The notes beneath the pieces are model-generated. The model ran no database searches, was not told the origin of the DNA, and saw only the letters and a program-made list of their open reading frames with translations. From Theristus sp. LFF4_11 (taxonomy: Eukaryota; Nematoda; Chromadorea; Monhysterida; Xyalidae): a stretch of DNA of 64,000 nt. This document shows positions 240 to 53,900 of the stretch, piece after piece. Numbering within the stretch: position 1 is the stretch's first letter; each line of letters starts with the position of its first letter. Both the position numbers and the translations under genes were made by a program. The stretch lies in NCBI GenBank assembly GCA_030248135.1, contig JASANC010003148.1, positions 1 through 64,000 on the forward strand. Direction: 5' to 3'.

Positions 240-2624
240 ATGCGCGGCAGTATGGCCGACACGGACCAAGAAAAGCGACGCGAGTCCTCGGATACCTCAT
301 CCGAGGACACGAGCGCTAGTGCCAAAGATTCCGCCGCTTTCGCTCGGTCGTTTGGCCGTATTCGGACTAATGCCTTGAAGTATGCAAGGTACCGCCAACA
401 CATAAAACCAGTTCAAGAGTTTGACTCAAGTAGAGATTCTGCAAGCAAGTTTTTGGAAAATTTGAATAAAAGAATGATGAACGCTCACACTATTGCAGCG
501 ACCTTGAGTCAGTATCGCAAGAAATTGGAGAATCTCATCACAAAGTGGGATAATTACTTAGAGGGTCTCGAAAATATTGCCGCTGAAGAATTTCAGACAG
601 AAAGTGAAATTTATGAACGGTCCAGACAAGACCGAGACGGGCGACAACCTGGCTTTTCCACCACTTTAGACCAAATTTTTGAATTGCAAACACGGTGGGA
701 AGACCAGGTTGACGCCGTACAAAAAAGGCAAATGGAGGTCTACGAGACTATGAAAGATACGCCTTTCTCAGTAGAGGACAAAAGTAGTGAAGCGTCAGGT
801 GGCGCTTTTGCCGGTCCGTCGGCACGACCGACGGGACGGTCCTCGTTGTACCCGGCACGTACTGAATCTCCGTCAACCGAAAAATTCAATCTGCCAACAG
901 TGTCCTATCGAACGAACACTTCGTTTCTTCATCCTGTGTTGACGACTGCCACAACTATGACCACCAACACCACTACATATCTGCAACCCGCGCATTTAGC
1001 TCCAACAACCGTTTCCCTCACGCCTCAAATTTCGATGCCGCCTTCAGCGTCGATTCAGTCAGGACCCTTCTGGTCTACATCGTCTGAATCTGCACCGTTG
1101 GGCAGACAGACATTTCCAACAACCCCGTTTTGGAGTTCCGCCGCAGGGCAAAGCCAGAAAGTGGAACGCGGAGCTTTTTGGTCCGAATTCGAGACTCCAG
1201 TACTTCAATCGGACACTCAACCGTTTTGGGCCATCAACACGGCCCAAAATGTACAAACATCGACATCGATTAGACCAGAAGATCGACAGCCTCTCATTGA
1301 CATGTCGATTCCTCCTCCTCCTGTTTCGGCTTCTGCTTTCGGAACACCACTCGTTGCAGTGTCTTCTTCAAACATTCGACAACCATTTCCCGTTACCTTG
1401 TCTTCTGATTTTAATTCCAACTCACAAACGCATTTTCACCAGTCGGCAGGGCAAATGCCCAATTACGCTCCGCGCATAGACGCAAATGCTGGTCAGAGTC
1501 ATTGTACTGCTGCACAGCCACCGTTGTACCCGGGCATGTCAAACCTTTCTCAACCGAATACTCGTGTTACAACTAATCAGCGCTTCAACACGGCTATGCA
1601 GTCTCGCACGATTAACGAGAATTCATCCTTCTTAGTTGATCAACCAGAGTCTCGTTCGCAACCTGCAAGTAACCAGTTTTTCTCATCATCTCAAGGCATG
1701 AAGTATCATGTACCCACAGTAAAACCATGTACGTTTAATGGCAAAAATGAAATGGACTTCCCAGCTTTTTGGGACATCTATCTTGCGACAATCGAACGTA
1801 ACCCTGAGTTACCTGCCGTAGTCAAATTCACAATGTTACATGGCTTACTGGAAGGTGGACCTAAGCAGCTCATTATGGGGTTACCCATTACCGAAGCCAA
1901 TTATCCCATCGCATTGCAAATTCTTGTCAATCGCTACGGGAACAAATCTCGAATCAAAAATAAGATCCAGCATGAGCTGGCATCAATTCCTCCGGCCAGA
2001 CTTGATCTATCGTCTCTCAATGCCACTTATACGGCAATTCAGTCATGTGTCCTGAAATTACACACTAGCAACCAACAGGAAGACCACTTCTTGATTGTCA
2101 AGGCCATCTTAGAAAAATTTCCTTCTGAGGTTGTTGAACAAATATCAGCTGCCAAACCGGTAGACAAGGAGTGGCAAACGCACCCACTTCTTATCGCCAT
2201 TGGCCAAATCATAAGAAGACGAGAAGAACTAGTCGATTTGGCAATTGAAAGAGCAGCTGCTAATCGTCGATGGACCGGCTACCGTAACCGAGAGAAACGA
2301 CCAAATAAACAAAACACCCCAAAGAAGGACAAATCCAAGGCATCCGTCAGGAGGTCTGTTTCTTGGGGGAGGTCGTCTTCGTCGGAACCTTCGCGGTCAC
2401 GAACCCCCTCCAGCAGACGGGCTTCTTCTGGCGGCTTCCGCAGTTCACTCAGTGACGTTGCGTTGAAACTCCAGTTTTTACTGTTGAGTCAACGTCAACA
2501 GGCAAAAAGGACACTAAGGCACCTCCTAAAAATAAACAAGCTGCGTCGAAAAAGATCGTCTCTGCAAAATCAGCCGAAACCAAAACAGGTAAGACAGAAG
2601 ATCGTAAGAAATCTAAAGCTGTGA
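240..2624 (+). CDS. gag: Gag of BEL/Pao element (DUF1759 capsid region)
   Basis: This is a 794-codon structural protein. The N-terminal ~190 residues are charged and helical. Residues ~190-490 are a long Ser/Thr/Pro/Gln-rich linker with repeated FW motifs (GPFWS, TPFWS, GAFWSE, QPFWA). Residues ~495-660 match the DUF1759 Gag family of BEL/Pao elements (FPAFWDIYLATIERNPELP, then LVNRYGNKSRI). A basic, Arg/Ser-rich stretch follows. The last ~55 codons (from about nt 2456) look out of frame: the overlapping -1 frame reads a Lys-rich linker straight into the CCHC knuckles, so the natural Gag product probably continues there. The peptide PLYPGMSN (nt 1521-1544) lies just before the capsid region and recurs elsewhere in the element. 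The ATG at 240 is the first in frame; a second at 252 is possible. Confidence 0.88.
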   Translation: MRGSMADTDQEKRRESSDTSSEDTSASAKDSAAFARSFGRIRTNALKYARYRQHIKPVQEFDSSRDSASKFLENLNKRMMNAHTIAATLSQYRKKLENLITKWDNYLEGLENIAAEEFQTESEIYERSRQDRDGRQPGFSTTLDQIFELQTRWEDQVDAVQKRQMEVYETMKDTPFSVEDKSSEASGGAFAGPSARPTGRSSLYPARTESPSTEKFNLPTVSYRTNTSFLHPVLTTATTMTTNTTTYLQPAHLAPTTVSLTPQISMPPSASIQSGPFWSTSSESAPLGRQTFPTTPFWSSAAGQSQKVERGAFWSEFETPVLQSDTQPFWAINTAQNVQTSTSIRPEDRQPLIDMSIPPPPVSASAFGTPLVAVSSSNIRQPFPVTLSSDFNSNSQTHFHQSAGQMPNYAPRIDANAGQSHCTAAQPPLYPGMSNLSQPNTRVTTNQRFNTAMQSRTINENSSFLVDQPESRSQPASNQFFSSSQGMKYHVPTVKPCTFNGKNEMDFPAFWDIYLATIERNPELPAVVKFTMLHGLLEGGPKQLIMGLPITEANYPIALQILVNRYGNKSRIKNKIQHELASIPPARLDLSSLNATYTAIQSCVLKLHTSNQQEDHFLIVKAILEKFPSEVVEQISAAKPVDKEWQTHPLLIAIGQIIRRREELVDLAIERAAANRRWTGYRNREKRPNKQNTPKKDKSKASVRRSVSWGRSSSSEPSRSRTPSSRRASSGGFRSSLSDVALKLQFLLLSQRQQAKRTLRHLLKINKLRRKRSSLQNQPKPKQVRQKIVRNLKL

Positions 2625-5600
2625 GATCCACGAAACAACCACGTGCGTGTGCATATTGTGGTAACACGAAACACCGACATGTAGACTGCGATAAATTCAA
2701 AGATGTAAGGAGCAGACTGGACCGCCTAAGGGCCCTGGCCAAATGTATAATTTGTCTGGAAACAGGCCACAGTGCAACCAATTGCACCGTGCGCAATGTC
2801 AGAGTTTGCACCTTTTGCAAAGGAAAGAACCATAACATGAGTCTTTGTTACAAACATGAACGACAAAGACGCAACGAGTCTACAAATGATTCTAACGATC
2901 GTAAAAACAGTGCCGTTTTGGCACCATGTGTCACAGAGGAAGATTCTTCTGAAAATGAAGAAGAATACGAAGTACAATACGCGCGTTTCTGTGTTGATCA
3001 AGCAGCATTGTCAGATGCATCCTCTCAACATCAGTCTAACATAGTTAGTGAATCCAGCGATAATGATTCTCCCACGGGAGAAACGGTCACAGCAGTGGTT
3101 GGCCACGATGCTGTGGTAGACGACAGACTCATTACAGCTGGAGTCTCAGTGCTAGATAGTATACCACCGGGTAATAAAGCAAGTGTTACTGCGTTGCTCG
3201 ATAGCTGTTCTAGTAGAAATTGGGTGTCCCCTGGCTTGGCAAAATTTCTACAATTAGAGGTTAAGGAAATCGGGACAATAACTGTTCGCCCATTTCGAAC
3301 AGATAAAGATCAGGATGACGGTACGGAAGTACCTAACAAACAAGTCTCCTTCTACATACAGTTGAAGGATGGCACGGTATGCCCTATCACAGCAACCATT
3401 GCACCCTCCGATGTGATGGTTGGACGCGTGTTGACTAAACCATTGTCTAAAACAGACATGGAATTTATAAATGGCGCCAACCTTCAAACCCAAGTAGCAA
3501 TAGACCTCAACAACTCTTCTGTCTGGCGTTATCCAGATCTTATTTTCAGTGCACGATATTTTATTCAGTTTTTGTTCGGCTTCCACCGGTCTACTGAACC
3601 CACTAAGGGAATAGTACGACTACCCAGTGGGATGCTGTTGATTCCATCGGCTCTTGGGTATCTGATTGCGGACGGGATAGTTCGAGGAAACAAAAAACGG
3701 AGACCACCAAGAACTTTGGTGTTTCCGCCGCTGGAAGAAGATGCGGATCTGAATATGACCGAAAATCCAAAACGGACCCGCAAAAAATCATCGGCTGAAA
3801 AGAACCATCCGATGAATAATGCCGGCTCTTCATTGCAAGAAGCTAGCGTTCTCGTAGTACCCGGTATGTCTGAAAATCTCACAGAGAATGAACTCGACAA
3901 TAAAGAATTGAATCTTGCTTTCAGTAAATTCCAAGATCTCGAAGGTTTGGGCATCACAGACTTGAATTCAAAATCTGATGATCAAATAGCCACAGAATTC
4001 TTCCGGCAGAATGCCAAATTCGTCCGTGATTCTCAAACCGGAGAACAAAGAGTAGAAGTACCATTCCCACCAAAACCAGGAGCAACACCTATTCCTTCTA
4101 ACAGAGGATTGGCGTATGCCCGGTTTCAAAACATCCGAAGGAAACTCCTGGAAAATCCAACCTTGTACGAACAATATCACAAGGGTTTCTTGGACCTTAT
4201 AGAAAGAGGGATCATTGCAGAATCACCAGAAGACGCTTCAACGGATAAAGAAGGCGAAACGCACTATTTAGCCCATCATCCGGTTTATAGGGAAGACCAC
4301 GCAACAACGAAGCAGCGTGCTGTGTTCGACTTCTCGGCACGTACTGGACCGGACGAACCAGCACTCAACGATTTATTTTTGCGAGGCGATCCCTGTATCG
4401 CTGACCTCGGACAAACACTTATCAGAGCACGGACTTATCCCGTCCTGCTCTTAGCCGATATTCAGAAAGCGTTTTTGATGATCAGTATACCACCAGAAAA
4501 TCGACGTCTCACGCAATTTTTCTGGGTGGACTCGCTAGAAAATCAAGCGGTTAAAACTTACTATTTCAAAAGGTTACCCTTCGGGCTAACCTCGGCGCCT
4601 AGTATTTTAGCATTTGCCATACAGTTCTTGATTGACCACAATGGTCAAAAATGGACTCAATATTGTCGCACGCATTTCTACGTGGATAATTTGATCACGG
4701 GTGTTTCTTCGTTAAATGATGCACGTGCGTTATTTGATGAAATTACTGCGGTTTTTCGTGATGGAGCCTCATTTATATTGCGTGAATGGCAGAGTAATGT
4801 GTCCGAGTTTCGGGAATATGTACCTTCAGAACTTCGCATGAAGAGCACAGACACTAAAATATTAGGCTTGAAATGGACAGCTACGTCTGACATTCTCGGA
4901 CTATCTCCGATGTCCATTCCAGAGAATAATGGTGTTTGGACAAAGCGCCAAGTCCTTAGTGCAGTAAACTCGTGTTTTGATCCACTCGGATTTGCTGCAC
5001 CGGTAGTTTTGCCTGCTAAGCTTTTGTTACAATCATTGGTTCTTGAAGAACTGGAGTGGGACACGCCAATCCCGGAATCTATCAACCAAAAGTGGGAAGA
5101 GCTTATCCCGGACTTAAAAGAAATTCGCGAAATTCAGTTGCCTCGCTTTTACGGCGAGCCATTAAATGACTGCGACGCACAAATTCATGCTTTTGCTGAT
5201 GCAAGCGTACACTGTTACGCTGCTGCTATATATTTGCGATTACAAAATCGACAGACAGGAACAGTGGTGACTCGTTTGGTCATGGCGAAATCAAGACTCA
5301 ACCCCAACCCACGTTCCCCTCTGTCTATAGTGCGCATGGAACTTCTAGCTCTTTTAATTGCAACTAGACTCATTGCTTACGTGCGTCAGGCCTTGAAGCT
5401 GGAAGACTCTCCAGCGTATTCTTGGACCGACAACACATGCGTCCTACACTGGTTGTCTTCGACCAAAAATTTGGGCGTGTTTGTCGCTAACAGGATCCGA
5501 GAGATCCAAAAATGTGTTAATACCCAGTTCAATTTCCTGCGTACTCAACACAACATCAGCGACGTTTTAACGCGTCCCGGTGTCAAGGTAGTAGATCTGC

Positions 5601-8600
5601 TGGAAAGTGAATGGTTCTCGGGTCCTCAATGGCTTTCGAACAGTTCAGACTCCTGGCCAAGAGCAGCATTGCCAGAAATGTCTAGCACGCTGAAAACTGA
5701 AAATCAACGAGAGTATCGCAAGTTCGCACAAAGGGGTTCAGAAAAGGATGATGGATCAATTCGTCAATGCCAGATTGCCGTGAGTATACTGACGGCATCC
5801 GCGGCTGAAGATGAAACTGCATGGAATACCTTCGTGGAGCGTTTTTCTCAGCTCTTGCGTTTGTTACGAAGCACAGTGTACATTCTTAGATTCATCAATC
5901 TGAAAGTCTGGAACAAGTTGACGTTGGATTCCCGCTCCAAATTCTCGTTTTTGAAATCGCTTTTCAGTAAAATAAACACCAAAGGTCCTATTTCTGCTTC
6001 AGAAATGAGAACAGCACTCAATTTTCTCCTTCGACATTGCCAAAGACTAGCGGTTCCTGATATATTCCATGCTATCTTACAAAAGAAAAAACATGCTCTA
6101 GTTTCTCAAATGAATCTATACGAAGACAGTTTCGGCATTTTGAGGTGTCAAAGCAGAATCACCCAAAATTCTGAACTGCCGCTAAAAACCAAATACCCCA
6201 AATTTCTGCCCAAAAAATCAATGTTAACAACGTTGATTATTAAACACCTGCATGAAATGTCAATGCATTGTTCGACCCAATATGTAATGGCTCAGTTGAA
6301 TCAATCGTATTGGCTTCCAACAGCTCGTTCCGTTGTAAAGCAAGTGCTCAACAAATGCACACCATGCAGGCGAATGCGTGGACCACCTTATAAACTGCCT
6401 GTCATGTCCCCTCTACCATCTAACCGTACTACCAAATCCCCAATTGGGGCACACATTGGGTGCGATCTTTTTGGACCAATCCACATCACCGAAGATTGTA
6501 CATGCAACAAAACCATCAAAGTTTGGGTTGTACTGTACACATGTCTTGTGTCCAGGAGCGTATTCCTGGACATCGTACGCGACATTTCCGCCAAAGAATT
6601 TGTCCTGTCGTTGAAACGCCAAATCAGTCGTTTCGGTGCAATGTTGACAATATCATCAGACAATGCCCCGAACTTTGTGTTGACACAACGTTTATGGGAC
6701 TTACTTCATGAAGAACATGTGACACCTGAATCGTCGTCCTTGATGGCTGACTTTTGCTCAAACCATGGCATTAAGTGGTATTTTTCACTTCCAGGCCATC
6801 CCCGAGCGGGCGGGGTCTGGGAGAGATTAGTATCAATTGTAAAAAACGCCTTAAAGGCAGCGCAAGGACGTCGTATTGTATCGTATACTCAGTTTAGAAC
6901 GATTTTGTCTGAATGTGAAGCTGTAGTTAACGCACGTCCAATCACTTATGTCTCTAACTCCCCAGACGAAGTAACAGCACTTCGTCCGATCGATCTGTGG
7001 TTTCCAAACGCCCTAACCGGTAGTCCAAGAATCGATTCTGTCGAAGTAAAGGACGAATACCGTCCGGAATGGACTTCCAGAGATAGCCTATTGAAATTCT
7101 ACGCTCAGTCCCAACAAATTGTCGACAATTTTTGGAAGTTTTTTGTTGATCTGTATCTTCCTCATCTACGTGAGAGGAAAATCCAGGAACACAAACAAGG
7201 CAGATCGACAGCCAAAGACACCCCTTCAGTAGGCGATGTAGTGCTGATACAAGGCGAGAACCTACCAAGAGGCGTCTGGAAATACGGCCGCATTGTAAAG
7301 TTAATCGAAAGCAATGACGGGCATGTACGCGGAGCTGAGGTTCTTGGCTCCTCGGGTCGGACTGTGAAGAGACCCTTGCATTTACTGTACCCATTAGTGG
7401 AATGTACAGATGACAAAATTAGCGACGAAGACGCTGAAGGTTCATCGCAAACACCTACTGCCAACCGTGCAGATGAACCAGTTGCCATGAGAACCAGATC
7501 AAGGCGCAGAAAATCGTCCACCAACGTGGCTACCGTTTTTGTATCTAATAATGGAGCAAGACGTGCACGTTCTCTTCCACCCAACAGAGTGCGTTTTAAT
7601 CTCAGTCCAACTGTAATCGGCTGTTGCCTAGTCATACAATTGTTATTTCTGTCGTTTCCACTCATTAGTGCAAACAGTCATTGCTCAAATGAAAACATGA
7701 GAGCCAACTCAGTAGTCAAATCTGAATTTTGTCTTAAGAATGGCATTGTAATTCACAAACACGCGGACGAAACCTTGTGCTGGTCCACAGTCAACTGCAC
7801 GGGCCAAAAACGATTAGACACCCTCGGGATGTGTCGCACAAATCACTGTGGTTGTCCAAAATGGGCTCAAGACTGTGTTGTCCACCCAGCGTCCCAATTA
7901 GCGGCGCAGATTGAGGTTAGTGCAAAATCGAAAGAAGCGCTGGCTATGCTTGCTCCGTCAGTTTGTTCATTCTTACCAAATCAAAAATGTGCTCAAAATT
8001 CTCAGGTTGGTTTTTTCCCTCAAATTGAACTTTTCGACGGCTCGAAATATCTCGTTCGGCAGCTTAATGTCACGACATCCACAATCCAAAAAACTGAATT
8101 CGTATGTATCGGTCAGTCAGAGGGTAAAAAACCTGCAGGAACTCCGGATTTTTGCCTTCAACATGATTGTATTGACGAACCTGCAACTCAGTTATGTTTC
8201 TTCGAGAAAATTGATTTGGCTCAATTTCACTACCCCAATTCTATTAGTGGAGACCCCGCCTCACCTATTCCAATTAAGGCTTGGGGCAGAATCCGTATTC
8301 GGTACTATTCGTCAAAGAACGTAGATCCGGCGTTGAGGAAAGGTGATCCTTGTCTCGAGTGCGTCTTAGAATGCATCCGAGGAGGCATAAGTTTCATTAT
8401 TCCTGCACGTACAACTGTTTTAGAAATTTGTGTCTTGTCACACTGTTATCGCCAATCCTTTCCAGCTACGGAAGGAAAATTCCTGTTTTTACCAGAGATT
8501 TCTGTTCATGAATACGAAGTAGAAATGAAAATCTGGGATGGACCGCAAATGATAGAAAAGATTGGCAAAACATGTCCACCAGAACCATTCTGCGAACAAA

Positions 8601-10762
8601 TAGACTGCATTGTTTGCTGGCTTTTGTTGGCGAATCTTCACTGTGTACCAATTGTCGGTGTGCTAGTGTTTATCATTATAGCATATTTTAGTTTGATGAA
8701 TATATATGTAGTGTTGAAGATCGTTGCTCGTATCGGTTCCATCATTAGATGTTTGTGCCGTGCCATTAGTAACTGTGGCACGTGTATTCGTCAATCGAGT
8801 ACGGGAATGGCTTACAAAAAAGCCTATTTACCCTTGTACGCCCTGGTTAAAGAAACCACGGAATCTCATACCACCACACCGTTACAACAGCTAACAAATG
8901 AAAATGCAGAACCGCGGTCTTCAACAGGATTAGTTCGATTGGACCTTTCGCCGGCAGTAATAGGTTGCATTTTTATTCTAGGTCTTACTCAGATGAGCGA
9001 ATCTCGTTCCACTTGTCCATCTACTACTACCTCTTCAAACTATGTTGACAATGATATTATAATATTCGTCTACCTCTGGCCTTTAGTCATCTTAGTCGTC
9101 TTGAGTTTACTTTCCGTCATCTTTTTGTTTAGGCGTTCTTGTGCTGACACTATCCGAGATCAATGTGTAAAATTTCAGGTTTTATTCAATGATGCTAAAC
9201 TACCATATCAACTTGTGACTAAAGTAGAGAACCCTTATATTGTTTTACAAGGAAATATCTCAGTCGGCAAAAGCTCCATTTTGGCTGCATGGCAACGATC
9301 ATTCCAGAATGTCATCTGCTTGCCAGAGGACGTCTCTAGTTGGTCGTGCTATGGTAGTGAACGAATAAATTTGCTACAACAAATGTACGATCATCCTGAT
9401 CAGTATGCGTGGATGCTAAATCTCCTTGCCATGCAAACTGAATTCATGCAAACACAAGGGCCTCCCAACAGTATCATTGTTAGTGAAAGAGACTTGCATT
9501 CCTGCGGAATCTTTCTCGACCTACATCGACAACATTTACCTCAACCATCTTATGAACTCCTTAACAATCACCGAATTTTTTTAATAGCATTGCAACATCG
9601 AACGCCATCTCTGTACATCAGAATAAACGCTGCCCTAAATCGCTTACCTCAACGTATAAAAAAGAGAGGTAGAGAAGCGGAAAAGAACATTACACCTGAA
9701 TTTTTGATCCAACTGGAAGAAAAACACGACACCTTCATGGAGTCGTCTGGCATTCCCTTTTTAAATTTGCTGAACAATTGCGATAACTTCCCTTCAGATG
9801 ACTATTGGGCTGAAAAATTAGAAACAATCTGCAAGGAAATGAATTTTGCAGCCCCAGTTCGTCGTCAATTTTCTGAGCTGTCCGAGACCATAGCGTCGTC
9901 GGCCAGTCATCCGTTGTACCCTGGCATGTCAAACATTACAGCTAATTGTGAAGTCAATTGTGATACCTGTTCATCGCAATTTCTAGATACCGCTGACGAT
10001 CAAACTTCAGAGATCCTCAAAACTACTGAACAACCTCCTCAGGTCAGGCTCAGAAGAATCAGACGCCGCAGCAATCTCGCCCTTTATAGCATGATCCTTC
10101 TCACTCTAACCGCCATTGGCACTGCAGAACAACTGACAACAATGCACCCGTTGATGTGGAATGCAAGGAAGAACCTGGCAGGTAACATCAGAGAACCCGA
10201 AGTATCAAACTCTCGTTGCTCCAAAATCCATCCCCCACCACGAAATTTGGTTGAAATAGAAAGCCAAAAATGTGTGCCAAAAGGTATTGTAATTTATAAA
10301 ATCTCCTCAGGGGAGTCGCTTTGCTGGGATGAGGTAAACTGCAATCGGAACGGTACCGGAAACCATTTGGGGTTTCTTGACGGCACCGGTCACTGTTCTC
10401 TTTTCAAGCGCGATTGCAAATGTCCTGGTTGGGCGCAGAATTGTTCCTTCTATTCAGGCCCTCCCTTGGACAGCATCGGCAATCAAGCTGATATTCTATC
10501 AGCCATAAAACCAAATTTCTGCTCTTTGACACCTAGCGAATTATGCGACCCCACCTCCCAGCGTGGTCACCAATTGACGAAACAGCAACGTAGAAACGAT
10601 ATAAGGCACGCGCAGGATAAGGCTGAAGGGCTGCTGTTTAGACAAGGAACAGTTAAAGGGTGTAGATATGCCGAGTACTACGATAAACTGTGGCAGTGTC
10701 TATGCACTGTCCCAGTTGAGTTCAAAGCACAAACAATTCAACAAAAAATGAGCAAGATATAA
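2456..10762 (+). CDS. pol: Pol-Env-kinase-Env2 polyprotein of the BEL/Pao element
   Basis: The frame is open from 2456 to the TAA at 10760-10762 and lies -1 relative to gag. In codons counted from 2621: three CX2CX4HX4C knuckles (~10-77); an aspartic protease with ALLDSCSSRNW (~194), where DSC replaces the usual D-S/T-G; RT with ADIQKAF (~611) and FYVDNLITG (~688); RNase H (~855-995; AFADAS, MELLAL, TDN); integrase with an HHCC finger (~1205-1250) and catalytic D, D, E (~1280, 1347, 1401; GCDLFG, SSDNAPN, GGVWERL); and DUF5641 (~1536-1593). Then follow Env1, a membrane-tethered kinase-like domain and a truncated Env2. BEL/Pao elements usually have one gag-pol frame, so the shift is either programmed -1 frameshifting or a one-base lesion. 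The tail after ~2647 is unrelated low-complexity sequence, suggesting a rearranged 3' end. Confidence 0.85.
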   Translation, partial: RCVETPVFTVESTSTGKKDTKAPPKNKQAASKKIVSAKSAETKTGKTEDRKKSKAVRSTKQPRACAYCGNTKHRHVDCDKFKDVRSRLDRLRALAKCIICLETGHSATNCTVRNVRVCTFCKGKNHNMSLCYKHERQRRNESTNDSNDRKNSAVLAPCVTEEDSSENEEEYEVQYARFCVDQAALSDASSQHQSNIVSESSDNDSPTGETVTAVVGHDAVVDDRLITAGVSVLDSIPPGNKASVTALLDSCSSRNWVSPGLAKFLQLEVKEIGTITVRPFRTDKDQDDGTEVPNKQVSFYIQLKDGTVCPITATIAPSDVMVGRVLTKPLSKTDMEFINGANLQTQVAIDLNNSSVWRYPDLIFSARYFIQFLFGFHRSTEPTKGIVRLPSGMLLIPSALGYLIADGIVRGNKKRRPPRTLVFPPLEEDADLNMTENPKRTRKKSSAEKNHPMNNAGSSLQEASVLVVPGMSENLTENELDNKELNLAFSKFQDLEGLGITDLNSKSDDQIATEFFRQNAKFVRDSQTGEQRVEVPFPPKPGATPIPSNRGLAYARFQNIRRKLLENPTLYEQYHKGFLDLIERGIIAESPEDASTDKEGETHYLAHHPVYREDHATTKQRAVFDFSARTGPDEPALNDLFLRGDPCIADLGQTLIRARTYPVLLLADIQKAFLMISIPPENRRLTQFFWVDSLENQAVKTYYFKRLPFGLTSAPSILAFAIQFLIDHNGQKWTQYCRTHFYVDNLITGVSSLNDARALFDEITAVFRDGASFILREWQSNVSEFREYVPSELRMKSTDTKILGLKWTATSDILGLSPMSIPENNGVWTKRQVLSAVNSCFDPLGFAAPVVLPAKLLLQSLVLEELEWDTPIPESINQKWEELIPDLKEIREIQLPRFYGEPLNDCDAQIHAFADASVHCYAAAIYLRLQNRQTGTVVTRLVMAKSRLNPNPRSPLSIVRMELLALLIATRLIAYVRQALKLEDSPAYSWTDNTCVLHWLSSTKNLGVFVANRIREIQKCVNTQFNFLRTQHNISDVLTRPGVKVVDLLESEWFSGPQWLSNSSDSWPRAALPEMSSTLKTENQREYRKFAQRGSEKDDGSIRQCQIAVSILTASAAEDETAWNTFVERFSQLLRLLRSTVYILRFINLKVWNKLTLDSRSKFSFLKSLFSKINTKGPISASEMRTALNFLLRHCQRLAVPDIFHAILQKKKHALVSQMNLYEDSFGILRCQSRITQNSELPLKTKYPKFLPKKSMLTTLIIKHLHEMSMHCSTQYVMAQLNQSYWLPTARSVVKQVLNKCTPCRRMRGPPYKLPVMSPLPSNRTTKSPIGAHIGCDLFGPIHITEDCTCNKTIKVWVVLYTCLVSRSVFLDIVRDISAKEFVLSLKRQISRFGAMLTISSDNAPNFVLTQRLWDLLHEEHVTPESSSLMADFCSNHGIKWYFSLPGHPRAGGVWERLVSIVKNALKAAQGRRIVSYTQFRTILSECEAVVNARPITYVSNSPDEVTALRPIDLWFPNALTGSPRIDSVEVKDEYRPEWTSRDSLLKFYAQSQQIVDNFWKFFVDLYLPHLRERKIQEHKQGRSTAKDTPSVGDVVLIQGENLPRGVWKYGRIVKLIESNDGHVRGAEVLGSSGRTVKRPLHLLYPLVECTDDKISDEDAEGSSQTPTANRADEPVAMRTRSRRRKSSTNVATVFVSNNGARRARSLPPNRVRFNLSPTVIGCCLVIQLLFLSFPLISANSHCSNENMRANSVVKSEFCLKNGIVIHKHADETLCWSTVNCTGQKRLDTLGMCRTNHCGCPKWAQDCVVHPASQLAAQIEVSAKSKEALAMLAPSVCSFLPNQKCAQNSQVGFFPQIELFDGSKYLVRQLNVTTSTIQKTEFVCIGQSEGKKPAGTPDFCLQHDCIDEPATQLCFFEKIDLAQFHYPNSISGDPASPIPIKAWGRIRIRYYSSKNVDPALRKGDPCLECVLECIRGGISFIIPARTTVLEICVLSHCYRQSFPATEGKFLFLPEISVHEYEVEMKIWDGPQMIEKIGKTCPPEPFCEQIDCIVCWLLLANLHCVPIVGVLVFIIIAYFSLMNIYVVLKIVARIGSIIRCLCRAISNCGTCIRQSSTGMAYKKAYLPLYALVKETTESHTTTPLQQLTNENAEPRSSTGLVRLDLSPAVIGCIFILGLTQMSESRSTCPSTTTSSNYVDNDIIIFVYLWPLVILVVLSLLSVIFLFRRSCADTIRDQCVKFQVLFNDAKLPYQLVTKVENPYIVLQGNISVGKSSILAAWQRSFQNVICLPEDVSSWSCYGSERINLLQQMYDHPDQYAWMLNLLAMQTEFMQTQGPPNSIIVSERDLHSCGIFLDLHRQHLPQPSYELLNNHRIFLIALQHRTPSLYIRINAALNRLPQRIKKRGREAEKNITPEFLIQLEEKHDTFMESSGIPFLNLLNNCDNFPSDDYWAEKLETICKEMNFAAPVRRQFSELSETIASSASHPLYPGMSNITANCEVNCDTCSSQFLDTADDQTSEILKTTEQPPQVRLRRIRRRSNLALYSMILLTLTAIGTAEQLTTMHPLMWNARKNLAGNIREPEVSNSRCSKIHPPPRNLVEIESQKCVPKGIVIYKISSGESLCWDEVNCNRNGTGNHLGFLDGTGHCSLFKRDCKCPGWAQNCSFYSGPPLDSIGNQADILSAIKPNFCSLTPSELCDPTSQRGHQLTKQQRRNDIRHAQDKAEGLLFRQGTVKGCRYAEYYDKLWQCLCTVPVEFKAQTIQQKMSKI
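7590..8790 (+). other. Env1: envelope-like glycoprotein module
   Basis: This is a domain within the polyprotein. A hydrophobic leader (LSPTVIGCCLVIQLLFLSF) follows a basic stretch and starts a Cys-rich ectodomain. Its first subdomain contains KGIVI-type and CGCPKWAQDC motifs. Its second contains GDPCLECVLECIRGG and several further Cys pairs. Two adjacent hydrophobic segments (about nt 8600-8720) and a Cys-rich cytosolic patch end it. The CxxCxxxCxxGG pattern is reminiscent of the phlebovirus-like class II glycoproteins described in invertebrate BEL/Pao elements, but this placement is an inference. A structure or profile search would be needed to confirm it. Confidence 0.65.
8932..9860 (+). 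other. Deoxynucleoside-kinase-like domain with N-terminal membrane segment
   Basis: This is a domain within the polyprotein. It is preceded by a second copy of the leader motif (LSPAVIGCIFILG) and a transmembrane helix (about nt 9055-9135) ending in FLFRRSC, so the kinase would face the cytosol if the helix is type I. The kinase part (9229-9845) has a P-loop GNISVGKSS (9251-9277), a LPEDVSSW segment in the place of the LTEPxxxW substrate/catalytic-base segment, NLLQQMY, the SERDLHS element matching the family's ER-S motif, and an Arg-rich LID (RIKKRGREAEKN) followed by LIQLEEKHDTFM. Order and spacing match the dNK/dCK/dGK/TK2 family, which phosphorylates deoxynucleosides. No premature stop was seen and all key motifs are present. 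Confidence 0.8.
10020..10580 (+). other. Env2: truncated second copy of the envelope N-terminal module
   Basis: After an Arg-rich stretch (RLRRIRRRS) a new hydrophobic leader (LALYSMILLTLTAIGTA) opens a second ectodomain. It parallels the first part of Env1: KGIVIYK/KGIVIHK, SLCWDEVNC/TLCWSTVNC, CKCPGWAQNC/CGCPKWAQDC, KPNFCSLTP/APSVCSFLP. The similarity stops near nt 10,560. The remaining ~65 codons are Gln/Lys/Arg rich and unlike Env1, so the second subdomain and membrane anchor are missing. The two copies are clearly diverged, which suggests an old duplication rather than an assembly artefact. Confidence 0.75.
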
Positions 10763-10972
10763 TAAGCACAAACAATGAGCAAGACACAACGACACACAAG
10801 AAACAATGACAAGATGAGACAATATGCAAAGTATATCAACGAACACAGAAAACCACAATTAACAGATGAAAACACAAGAGAATGCAAGAACAGTGGTGAA
10901 CGAACTTTCAGTGGAAATTTTGAATCTGGTAGAATTTTTTTTAGAATGAAAAATGGAAAGACCGCTACACAT

Positions 10973-10995
10973 CAGACGACAAGGGTGGTCGTCTG
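10973..10995. repeat. Perfect 8-bp stem hairpin downstream of the polyprotein stop
   Basis: cagacgac and gtcgtctg flank a 7-nt loop (aagggtg). It lies ~210 nt after the stop codon, ahead of the tandem repeat. It could mark the start of a 3' terminal region; its function is unknown. Confidence 0.6.
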
Positions 10996-11013
10996 ACTAT
11001 TTTTTATGGAATT

Positions 11014-11131
11014 CAAACTTTCATGCCTCGAGCCGAGAGGCGCCCTTTCCCAGCCTCGGCGCCTACTCATTCCAAACTTTCACGCCTCGAGCCGAGAGGC
11101 GCCCTTTCCCAGCCTCGGCGCCTACTCATAA
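11014..11131. repeat. 59-bp direct tandem repeat, two copies
   Basis: Copies 11014-11072 and 11073-11131 are nearly identical. Each contains aggcgcc...ggcgcct inverted arms around a 13-nt spacer and a CTCGAG palindrome, so each can fold. The GC content is unlike its surroundings. It may be LTR or UTR structure of the BEL element. Confidence 0.75.
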
Positions 11132-11826
11132 ACACGTCGGAATACAATGAATTGGCCCATCCCAAAATACTTCACATTGCATTCCATTTCATCTAAAAAT
11201 ACATCCACAAAACATTCCATTCACTACGGTACTTTCTCTCCCAAATCCGCAACAGCTTTATTGATTGCTGTATTGTGTCGTCTGTCAATTATAAACGAAT
11301 ACATAAAATCCGCCAGAAGATCGTGTGGCTACAGTCAACTGATAAAATTGTTTGCTGGTACGGTACGGTGAATTTTGCTTTTCAGACCACCCGAAGAGCT
11401 TGCGAAGACGACGTTGAAAACGACGAGTTGTTCATTTTTGAAAATAACAAAATGACATACTGCTTTTGATTTTTTGCTTCTTTTATTAAAAGTTTCGGTT
11501 AGTAACCGTGGTTTCCCATTTTGCTGTGCTTCTAACTGTAATATAAAATTTGTTGCAGCAGTTTATGACTTTTTTCTCGTGATAATTTTTGGGTACTGTG
11601 CGTGACAAAATTGTAAAGCTTTCTCGGCAACTTTTAGAATTTCCGCAAACAAAATTCTGTATAGTATCCATTGTAATCAAAAAAACGTCAATTAAAAAAA
11701 AACGTTTCGATCTCGCGATTGTGGCAGGCAAACTTTTGTTTTGTTTTGTTTTGGTTGGAACGCGACAAATGAACACACCACCCCCACCCAGCGGTAATAA
11801 CTGTTTTATTGACTGATGGTTCGTTG

Positions 11827-51000: not shown

Positions 51001-53900
51001 AAGGCAAAAGCAAAGGACCAACCCGTAAATCAAAAAAGAGAAGAAAAAAACAACACGCAACCGAGAAAAGCACAAAAGAAACTGAATTTCCACAACAAAA
51101 ATCCGAATTCACACGGCCACATCACAATCATCTACTGAAACACACGACTCATTCCGCGGTTCGTCGCTGTCGTCTAGTCCCAGTTCACAATTCTTTTCTT
51201 CGAGTCTAAAAAAGACCGGACTTTTCTCAGTTTTTTTTCAATGAAATTTTCTAATCTCCCATTTTCTAATAAAGAACCCACAAAGCAAGCGCTTATTTAA
51301 CGCACTGATTCGCAGTCTTCAGTCTGTCCCACAGCCGATCCACTGCCCCCAAACGTCTGCAGTCTTTCGTTCGTGGCGCTGCGCACTGCGGCGTCGCCAG
51401 CCAATCAGCTTCGTTGGTACAACTACAGTTGTCGCTGATTGGTCCGCTTGGTTTCCTTGCACCACCACCACCACCCGCCCTTTTCGTCAATGCACGCCAG
51501 CATTGCACCGAAGCTCGCTCGCGAACGCGCACCAATTTGCGATCGTAGCGTTTCTGACGGGCTCTGCGAACGAACGAACGAATACACACAGTGTGTTCGA
51601 GAATTGGACAGCGCTGGACTGGGTTGTTGTCGTTGCTAGTTACTGCCGCTATCCGTCGAGGGGAGGGAGAGGGGGGGGGGGGGGTGAACACCCAGATTGG
51701 TTGCCCGGTGAGCTCCGAGCTCCGGGAATACCAAGCGGACGGTAGTCACCGCTCGTGTTCCGGCGTTAGCGTGCTGGACTTTTGTGTCTGTACGTTCGGG
51801 GGATCGAGCCCCGCCAAGGGGTATATAGTCACTTAATGACAGACGAAAACTCGATGGGCGCCCTACTCGACGGCGTTCTGTACGCTTCTCTGGGTTAGCC
51901 CTCGCTAAAAACATCGCCTAAAAATTCCAACAACAACAACAACAACAAAAGAGAACACGCAATGTTTTTTTCCAGAAACGAAACTCACAACTCTTTCACA
52001 TCGCACCGCTCCTGCTGCAGATCGCACGTCACTGGCTGGTCGGGCGAGCCAGCACAGCCGGCACTCAAATTGAACTGGCCGGACTCAGTCGGCGTGGGCG
52101 TTTGAGGCGTCGGCGCCAGGGGACGCCACTGACTGGAGTTGTTGTTCTCGTCAAGGTCCTGGCGAACACGAGTCAAGATTTCCAAACGAACGAACATGAA
52201 TTTCGGCTGTGTTGTTTATACCCGGGCTGTCAAGTTAGTAATCACTGTAGAGCCATCTAATTTCAGATTTTGCCAAAAGCAAGCAACTCAAATAAGACTG
52301 TGTGTGACACGGAGACCCTACCACGGCACATTTGTCGTGTGAACGCCTTGCGAAAGTTATGATCGCAAGGAGACTTTGGGACACGGACAACTGATGACGT
52401 TATGGGCATGTGTGACGTTTTTTCGTGACACGCTATTTTAGCGTGTTTTATATCGCCACAGCAAAATCGTGCAATCTTGAACAGCGGAGTCGCGGAACAT
52501 ATAAACGGTTCTTGAAACAGTATCATCAGTTATCAATCAGCGGTTGTCAATTTAGAACGCAACGGGATGTCCCTGTAATTTTCTGTATTTTCACGAAACG
52601 AAAACCAACCGAATCATTCGATCGTGTTCGATGTATTTCTTTGATCCACTCAAAAGAACGGCCAATAATTACATGGCACAAGGTGGAAGTTTGTGCCCGG
52701 TTTTACCTCATCGCAGCTGTTTCCAGCACCAACCAGCCCGGATTTCGTCCTGCGTTCGTTCTTCACGTAATCTATCAACAACGTCGCTTCATCTTCTGAA
52801 TCCGACTCGCAAGACGACGACGAATTGTCGAGGAAATTTGGCGGCATTTTCGGCATCTGACAAAAAAACGCGGAGGTTCAAATGCAGCAACCTGATTGGT
52901 TGCGAAATATCACGCGTTGGCATGACGGTTGCCTGAACACCTGTCTCTTTTTTTTGTCACACAATCACAAACCAAACACACCAGCGCACAAGCGTTTGTC
53001 GCATGCAAATGTGCCTGTGTGTTTGTTTGTGTGTGTGTGTGTGTGTGTGTTTGTTTGTGTGTGTGAGTCACGTCCACGTGTGCATGCGAGGGCACCACGG
53101 CACGGTGTTTCAGACTGTGAATTTTACAAAAGGGGGCAAAACAGAATGAAAAGGAACTGTCTCGATGAATTAGAAGGAAAATAATGGAAACTGAATTATT
53201 AACAAACAAAAACACCTAATAAAGTCTTGATTGCGAGAAGGTCACCAACCACAACATTCAAATGAGGTCTCTCTGCAATGTACTGCTCCCAATCAAACTC
53301 TTCATCCCAGTTTTCCTCGAACTTTTCATCATTTTCACGCAATGTTTCGCCGTTTTTACCCGATTTCGCGTGTTTACAGTTGCGGTTGGTTTTATAGCCG
53401 TTTTGCTTGTTTGTTGTTCTGAAACGTGAAAGAATCTATTTTTTAGAAACACAACCACTGCAAGTGTCTGCATTATAAATTCAGCAAGCAAGCAAGCGGT
53501 TGGTATCCACCTGCACTACCGGCACCCACGTTCTCACCTTACGATGGATGGTGCGGCGGAATTATCAATAATAAAGCGGCGTTCATGAAGCTGCACTCGA
53601 AAGTACAGGCAATCAGACAGCTGGTTGGTGATCACGTGATGCATGCTTTCTCCAACGATCACGTGATCGATCAATCACCAACCAATCAGCTGACTGCCCA
53701 CAATTCAGTTCGGTCGTACCTACGCACCATCAAATGACGCTCCATGAACGTCCCGATAGAAAGCAAGACAAAAAACACTGCGAAACAAAACGTCACCTAT
53801 TCTTGCGAGCATGTTTCCCGGCCGACTGTGTCAATGCGACCTCAATTTCATCATCAGAGGTCGCAGCAACAACGTTCGCTTTTCGCAGACGACGAGGCAT
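43355..53900 (-). CDS. Rabaptin-5-like Rab5 effector with C-terminal FYVE finger, ~14 exons
   Basis: Exons (5' to 3'): 53900-53797, 53418-53250, 52856-52707, 52158-52000, 48432-48330, 47608-47340, 47113-46970, 46706-46542, 46051-45866, 45406-45328, 44933-44788, 44423-44298, 43695-43495, 43402-43355; phases join, 682 residues. From 47608 onward the match to Rabaptin-5 is clear: CEMCSNYELQLQ, a continuous coiled coil, LPQTVDELQLHCLKVREEL, EAVQRDFVKLSQSLQIELEK. The 43695 exon is a FYVE finger: WQFDEDVYECNGCQTSF, LHCRHCARIFCDEC, ARVCQICHTLL, with eight Cys/His ligand positions and WxxD-like and RVC motifs. Rabaptin-5 binds Rab5 and Rabex-5 on early endosomes; a FYVE domain would add PI3P binding. 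The first five exons (acidic, low complexity) are less certain and could belong elsewhere; the alternative 52158-51989 donor breaks phase. Confidence 0.82.
43878..43985. mobile_element. MITE family H2, decayed copy
   Basis: ggtccgtttataccggacgt at the left; gcatacgtcaggtatgaacg ggcctta at the right, with ggcacggcacggcacg inside. It lies in the Rabaptin-like gene's intron before the FYVE exon. Confidence 0.65.
45050..45098. repeat. (TTG)n microsatellite
   Basis: About 16 TTG units in a Rabaptin-like intron; same triplet family as the SINE tails and as the coding CAA/AAC runs at 26993 and 28443. Confidence 0.9.
46047..46320. repeat. ~74-bp minisatellite spanning a Rabaptin-like 3' splice site
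   Basis: About 3.7 units starting near 46047, 46121, 46195 and 46268. On the coding strand the unit contains TTTTCGCCTAATTTCCAG and CGTCTCCTCGGCTCAC, against the genuine junction TTTTCGCCCAACTTGCAG / CGTCTGCTCGGCGCTCAC at 46051. Confidence 0.9.
47155..47225 (+). mobile_element. tRNA-derived SINE head, second family
   Basis: TGTAGCGCAGGTGCAGGGCT, then GTCTACCG, then CGTTCGAACCC: A- and B-box-like spacing, related to 18,650-18,712. A short fragment of the first SINE family (minus strand) follows at ~47,270-47,315. Confidence 0.5.
48577..48774 (+). mobile_element. tRNA-derived SINE, copy 10
   Basis: Full-length with aaaacaacaacaacacaac tail, in a Rabaptin-like intron. Confidence 0.87.
48775..51746. 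other. Large intron of the Rabaptin-like gene (between SINEs)
   Basis: A-rich on the plus strand with scattered low-complexity runs, and a G-rich tract at ~51,661-51,685. No convincing exon, RNA gene or element was recognised. A plus-strand GC-rich patch at 51,300-51,640 has open frames but no recognisable protein. Confidence 0.5.
51747..51948 (+). mobile_element. tRNA-derived SINE, copy 11
   Basis: Full-length with (CAA)n tail; ends ~52 nt from the donor-side edge of the 52158-52000 exon. Confidence 0.87.
53578..53755. mobile_element. Nested MITEs: Tc1-like core inside H1-like ends
   Basis: The outer arms gcggcgttcatgaagctgca and tgacgctccatgaacgtccc resemble H1 ends. Inside, cagctggttggtgatcacgt and aatcaccaaccaatcagctg form the core of the CACGTG MITE family (~53,612-53,720). 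Confidence 0.6.

Follow-up and report, generated by a model that had tools for sequence, protein, structure and literature searches.

Reverse transcription is limited in resting cells by the supply of deoxynucleoside triphosphates (dNTPs), a limit which is exploited by host defence, and retroviruses are known to carry a dUTPase. Among BEL/Pao long terminal repeat (LTR) elements, Tas and Cer7 possess a phlebovirus-like envelope (env), their core of A17 protease, reverse transcriptase (RT) and integrase (IN) being followed downstream by a PF07245 fusion protein, as in the kinase-bearing families described below. Enzymes of nucleotide metabolism located in a retroelement are known in the dUTPases of retroviruses and of LTR elements from fungi, rotifers and planarians (PMC4531489, PMC6431247, PMC5408684), and the dUTPases of non-primate lentiviruses are presented as critical only in non-dividing cells (PMC4531489). 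Here, we describe an element located at the start of contig C2022 (GenBank JASANC010003148.1; 91,849 bases) of the nematode Theristus sp. LFF4_11 (assembly GCA_030248135.1; 159 Mb, 3744 contigs), of which bases 1-64000, hereafter the window, were analyzed. It is an envelope-bearing BEL/Pao retroelement, endogenous and virus-like, with a genuine enzyme of the deoxynucleoside kinase (dNK) family in its pol-env polyprotein.

The kinase domain and its polyprotein

The Pfam dNK profile (PF01712) matches the polyprotein with an E-value of 1.1e-22 and 81.3 bits against a cut-off of 27, covering residues 147-320 of the translated piece 8801-9859 and positions 1-175 of the 203 of the profile. The motif set of the family (P-loop, catalytic E-x4-W, (D/E)R and LID RxxRxRxxE) is present as GNISVGKS, EDVSSW, ERD and the arginine-rich RIKKRGREAE. 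Both BEL/Pao families found in this genome (family A, that of the window, and family B, introduced below) retain the P-loop, the catalytic Glu, the ER pair and the LID arginines, the third letter of the ERS motif being D in both. An AlphaFold2 model built with a 20-row alignment (a 3-row model, with a predicted local distance difference test score of 37, was not used) predicts the dNK fold. Profile, motifs and fold are thus in agreement with the initial annotation, made from the letters alone, which had placed a dNK-family domain with this motif set in frame within a 2,700-codon open frame of a BEL/Pao element and called for profile and structure searches; the start that it gave, 8932, lies in a different frame from the domain.

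The element begins at base 240 with a first open reading frame (ORF1) containing DUF1759, followed by the single long frame, which is shifted by -1 relative to ORF1 and overlaps it by 166 bases; around this overlap, the window shows no X XXY YYZ slippery heptamer at 2441-2640. The long frame encodes successively an RT (RVT_1, 31.4 bits against a cut-off of 29.6), Peptidase_A17 (E 3.1e-48, 164 bits), an integrase zinc finger (H2C2, 37.3 against 25.5), an integrase core below threshold (rve, 26 bits for a cut-off of 32.6) and DUF5641, and it is by A17 protease, RT and integrase in one frame that we recognise a BEL/Pao element. Downstream of the integrase, a Gn-like module is followed by a short leader and a transmembrane helix, then by the kinase domain, after which a second Gn begins (Table 1). 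Only one LTR (680 bp, TG...CA) is seen in the window copy, and the 5' LTR would fall beyond the contig start.

Regarding the envelope, the kinase had been described as lying between two envelope modules. It is flanked on both sides, but the first module (7721-8800) duplicates the Gn half alone, in diverged form (27% identity to Gn, E 4e-36), and the second is represented in the window by the start of Gn. Ahead of the kinase, the stretch 7610-8800 is thereby an envelope half duplicated without Gc. The Gc profile PF07245 is absent from the window copy, which is truncated, and is present downstream of the integrase in its kin (C1046, C436 and C374 of family A, and C2646). The leader-like segment and transmembrane helix noticed earlier ahead of the kinase correspond to hydrophobic stretches at 8930-8995 and 9056-9112, the latter followed by FRRSC, both flagged by the hydropathy scan; the signal-like stretch preceding Gn (10070-10123) was seen by eye and was unflagged by the scan. 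In family B, the scan flagged a helix (C2646 50085-50141) followed by basic residues, 5' of the dUTPase and the kinase, and a further stretch at the Gn start (51411-51467), while the leader ahead of the helix was read by eye. Following the positive-inside rule, the basic residues after the helix would place the kinase, together with the dUTPase in family B, on the cytosolic side of the membrane, that is, inside a budded particle.

Table 1. Features of the window element and of the Ty3/gypsy-like elements carrying a kinase (window coordinates unless a contig is given)
Feature	Position	Strand	Basis
gag-like ORF1; DUF1759 at about 1752-2159	240..2624	+	ORF and Pfam profile
pol-env polyprotein open frame; 2713 codons from GTG at 2621; inverted LTR sequence from about 10575	2456..10762	+	
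Reverse transcriptase, RVT_1 partial profile	4421..4711	+	Pfam
Peptidase_A17 domain, typical of Pao elements	4940..5434	+	Pfam
Integrase: H2C2 zinc finger, rve core (under cut-off), DUF5641	6224..7393	+	Pfam
Extra Gn-like envelope module: hydrophobic leader 7610-7666, membrane helix 8642-8698; no Gc	7610..8800	+	Sequence comparison, hydropathy
Leader-like stretch 8930-8995 and transmembrane helix 9056-9112, 5' of the kinase	8930..9112	+	Hydropathy scan; predicted topology
Deoxynucleoside kinase domain; Pfam core 9239-9760	9230..9859	+	Profile, predicted fold
Second envelope module (Gn-Gc), initial part: first portion of Gn, preceded by a signal-like stretch at about 10070-10123 (by eye); remainder absent from the window copy	10070..10563	+	
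Family LTR, about 680 bp, TGTT...GTCA, inverted, abutting the broken Gn	10575..11254	-	Same segment in element orientation downstream in C1046, C436, C374, C68
Ty3/gypsy-like elements; downstream of pol, a dNK ORF, an SF1-helicase ORF and another small ORF common to them	C2275:845-19650; C1424:3418-12729; C2356:87639-95045		

Copies, a second family and other kinase loci

Searching the genome with the dNK profile gave at least 16 matches on at least 14 contigs, namely five BEL/Pao copies (the window, C1046, C436, C374 and C2646), three Ty3/gypsy-like elements (C1424, C2275 and C2356) and six contigs that are neither or are decayed (C1377, C64, C2048, C2486, C3513 and C2452). Within family A, C1046 is 99.9% identical to the window over 7381 bases, its kinase differing by one silent codon, and the kinase parts of C436 (two silent and two replacement codons) and C374 (3 mismatches, a one-base gap and a stop) are 99.5% and 99.1% identical. 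The kinase-to-Gn junction is found on four contigs at 99% identity or above. One related copy, C68, assigned to family A by its polymerase, is devoid of the module: a deletion that starts early in the extra Gn and stops close to the LTR has removed envelope and kinase alike; we read it as a later loss and not as the state before capture. An inverted SF1 (superfamily 1) helicase-like fragment, by eye resembling the family-B helicase, occupies the place of the deletion (C68:10725-11726). Satellite arrays of about 150 bases stand in C436 between the envelope and kinase halves and again within pol (C436:9943-19544). The initial annotation had assigned the kinase to the element itself and not to a neighbouring host gene, and had named as contrary outcomes the lack of a dNK profile match, or copies lacking the module beside a recent host-exon insertion. 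Neither was obtained as worded: the profile matches, the kinase is in frame, its junction recurs on four contigs, a second family has it too, and C68 lacks it through a deletion that also takes the envelope.

This family B, on C2646, consists of one frame of 3892 codons with DUF1759, RT (below cut-off), A17, an integrase recognised by its zinc finger and DUF5641, a dUTPase (E 1.3e-30), the dNK, Gn and Gc (PF07245); downstream of this frame, an SF1 helicase is encoded in an ORF of 1118 codons. Identity to the window family reaches 67% in RT-A17, 60.5% in Gc, 51% in the kinase and 36% in Gn. Between the two kinases, the proportion of synonymous differences (pS) is 0.815 and that of non-synonymous differences (pN) 0.359, and 9 of 31 fourfold third positions are alike; since synonymous sites are saturated, these proportions are given in place of dN/dS. 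Saturated synonymous differences alongside this pN indicate that the kinase protein has been held by purifying selection over the split of the two families.

In a tree of A17 (19 rows of 32 matches, leaving out near-copies, fragments and C3164, and counting C68 in the kinase group although its kinase is lost), families A and B form one group with 100/100 support, apart from the 16 others; the simplest reading is a single capture before their split. Sixteen contigs hold both the A17 and the Gc profile, three of them with a dNK (C1046, C436 and C2646), and the profile search gave no dNK match in the other 13, several of which are near-copies (identical A17 rows; equal scores for C521, C1197 and C3333). 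In the 11 of these 13 with complete starts (the exceptions being the broken C3317 and C418, whose A17 is partial), A17 and Gc are 3.78-3.91 kb apart, compared with 5.4 kb in C2646, where dUTPase and dNK make up the added length, and 6.5 kb in C1046, where the extra Gn and dNK do.

The presence of a kinase in a BEL/Pao element is real, but it is no lone oddity. The element on C2275, Ty3/gypsy-like by a reading of its domains, spans 18.8 kb between 728-base repeats with 1 difference (no TG...CA ends or target-site duplication were seen for them) and comprises gag-pol (RT, RNase H, integrase with H2C2), a dNK ORF, an SF1-helicase ORF and small ORFs without a Pfam match. The same order is found in C1424 and in C2356, the latter cut by the contig end inside RT. 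These three kinases are 54.5-59.8% identical to each other (pS 0.71-0.80, pN 0.24-0.31) and 22-27% identical to that of the window. The helicases of family B and C2356 share 25% identity over 573 columns (E 3e-38), a likeness which, for SF1 helicases, does not show exchange, and the N-terminal half of the C1424 helicase matches only the three gypsy-like contigs.

Further kinase loci deserve mention. At C1377:14704-16205, a free-standing dNK ORF (220 aa) adjoins a dUTPase ORF (149 aa); a Ulp1-like protease ORF lies nearby on the opposite strand, and the locus may represent a DNA-virus-like or Maverick-like insertion. Fragments of dNK that look decayed, belong to the retroelement-like lineage and have intron-like gaps are present at C64:11970-14865 and C3513:9824-10466, and in C64 pieces of dUTPase lie 0.4-2.4 kb from them. 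In C3513, these gaps are GT...AG by reading, one of them inside the P-loop, so an intron-bearing gene of the retroelement dNK lineage exists or existed in the genome.

In a 24-row dNK tree, the five retroelement kinases, C3513 and C1377 stand on one side of a branch that is not firm (88/92), facing 12 bacterial or phage rows, 4 animal-type rows and P0005, a database protein; without bacteria (13 rows), the same split obtains 100/99. C1377 and C2048 form long branches, and the rows of this tree include no kinase of a large DNA virus. The exon-split, animal-type C2048 is taken as the host's own kinase. Grouping it with the five retroelement kinases was rejected (approximately unbiased test, p-AU 0.0295), grouping the BEL kinases with C2048 (p 0.062) or with the animal-type rows and P0005 (p 0.057) was not quite rejected, and a clade of the five retroelement rows alone was neither shown nor rejected (p 0.46). 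The kinase may stem from a host gene, a DNA virus or exchange among elements.

Proposed role and alternative explanations

We consider it probable, and the likeliest mechanism on present sequence evidence, that a membrane-held kinase, aided in family B by a dUTPase, feeds the DNA synthesis of the element. The leader and helix would insert the kinase as a membrane-anchored domain on the cytoplasmic, inner face beside Gn-Gc; so anchored, it would stay at the assembly membrane and could enter the particle, where it might phosphorylate deoxynucleosides, with dUTPase clearing dUTP in family B, and support the reverse transcriptase wherever cellular dNTPs are scarce. Several points weigh against this proposal. 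The base-recognising Gln (Gln97 in dCK, Gln81 in Dm-dNK), a mark of ordinary substrate binding and not of the Pfam family, is Asn64 in the window, and each of the 19 remaining rows of alignment A3 (20 rows) has Gln. Family B has His at the aligned position, and the three gypsy-like kinases keep Gln. These replacements suggest a possible shift in the substrates used. No complete family-A copy was seen: that of the window is rearranged at 10563, the final 60-odd codons of its frame being inverted LTR sequence; C1046 starts within pol, its Gn and Gc lying in separate frames; satellite interrupts C436; and C374 begins at a kinase that has a stop. Membrane topology and packaging, moreover, are predicted from hydropathy and reading by eye.

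Ranked next, though unlikely, is a repurposing of the fold: within the envelope precursor, the domain would have a structural or regulatory role, or another phosphotransfer role, in place of nucleoside salvage. The altered Gln position in both BEL families would fit such a role, as would Glu71 in the window kinase where at least 90% of the A3 rows have Arg, the long branch leading to all enzymes of known activity in the 24-row tree, and the reuse of the fold in NDUFA10, a complex I subunit and sequence relative of the C2275 kinase; the catalytic motifs kept in both BEL families argue against it, and the adjoining dUTPase of family B suggests nucleotide metabolism. An action directed chiefly at the host cell, or at nucleoside-type inhibitors or competitors, with dNTP pools shifted for purposes beyond the element's own reverse transcription, seems improbable: it finds no direct support here beyond the general knowledge that multiple roles are common among viral nucleotide enzymes, and tethering in the envelope precursor would rather favour action at assembly or in the particle.

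A passive and recent capture of a host gene, functionless for the element, is very unlikely. C68 without a kinase and the stop in C374 would agree with it, yet C68 also lost its envelope, the two families show saturated synonymous divergence at 51% protein identity, the same position before Gn-Gc and no introns, and the tree holding all five retroelement kinases with C2048 was rejected. Hardly credible at all is an artefact of assembly or reading joining a host exon to a retroelement: fragmentation into 3744 contigs and the odd inverted-LTR junction of the window copy could raise that suspicion, against which stand the junction shared by four contigs and the independent family on C2646. Artefact, neighbouring host gene and recent functionless capture are consequently rejected on junction, divergence and tree evidence.

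Taking the feeding of reverse transcription by an anchored kinase together with the gypsy-like elements, we tentatively put forward a broader reading, which we rate as less likely than not: LTR elements of two superfamilies would share a pool of replication-support genes (dNK, dUTPase and SF1 helicase) of a single non-standard dNK lineage, moving from element to element and perhaps also exchanged with intron-bearing host or viral genes, and the BEL/Pao nucleotide enzymes would be membrane-anchored parts of the envelope precursor, giving the reverse-transcribing core in the particle its own dNTP supply.

Comparison with known systems

From the cellular enzymes of PF01712 (Dm-dNK, dCK and dGK), the window kinase differs by an identity of about 18-28% in structural alignments, by the replaced base-binding Gln and by its setting in a retroelement polyprotein, and these enzymes lie across the branch from the retroelement kinases (88/92 in 24 rows, not firm). 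A protein database search with the window kinase gave 2 matches, 31-32% identical. NCBIfam has no family for either BEL kinase and returned, for the gypsy-like ones, dTMP-kinase-type matches only, far under cut-off. Among viral contigs, single-protein scans confirmed no relative for the kinases of C1424 and the window or for P0005, and a search with alignment A2 gave 4 loci at 24-25% identity, along with 20 bacterial loci in genome contigs. In alignment A1, the search for related loci met no sufficiently conserved stretch. Phage records include none matching the window kinase, 51 matching that of C1424 (all under 60% identity) and 64 matching P0005. We found no paper linking deoxynucleoside kinase, retrotransposon and pao, which is not to claim absence from print, and the word "kinase" does not occur in the main texts of PMC5408684, PMC6338049, PMC6431247, PMC7264820 and PMC4531489.

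The nearest viral folds in BFVD are dNK or thymidine kinase genes of large DNA viruses (Kallithea and Heliothis zea nudiviruses, poxviruses, iridoviruses and giant viruses); no named reverse-transcribing virus is among the matches listed (50 of 119 at E 0.001, some nameless). The likeness is that of a virus bringing its own nucleotide enzyme, the difference that those genes belong to DNA viruses. Retroelement dUTPases are a different enzyme with a different reaction, and family B has both. The envelope-bearing BEL/Pao kin on 13 contigs of the same genome gave no dNK match. That a single type of accessory enzyme occurs in retroelements of unrelated types within the same genome recalls the bdelloid LTR elements of Rodriguez et al., 2017 (PMC5408684), which share DEDDy or GDSL ORF3s, although the enzymes differ. 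If our proposal is right, a nucleoside kinase would allow a retroelement to make precursors and not only to clean them, and its presence in two superfamilies with dUTPase and helicase companions would mean that retroelements assemble nucleotide-metabolism sets as large DNA viruses do.

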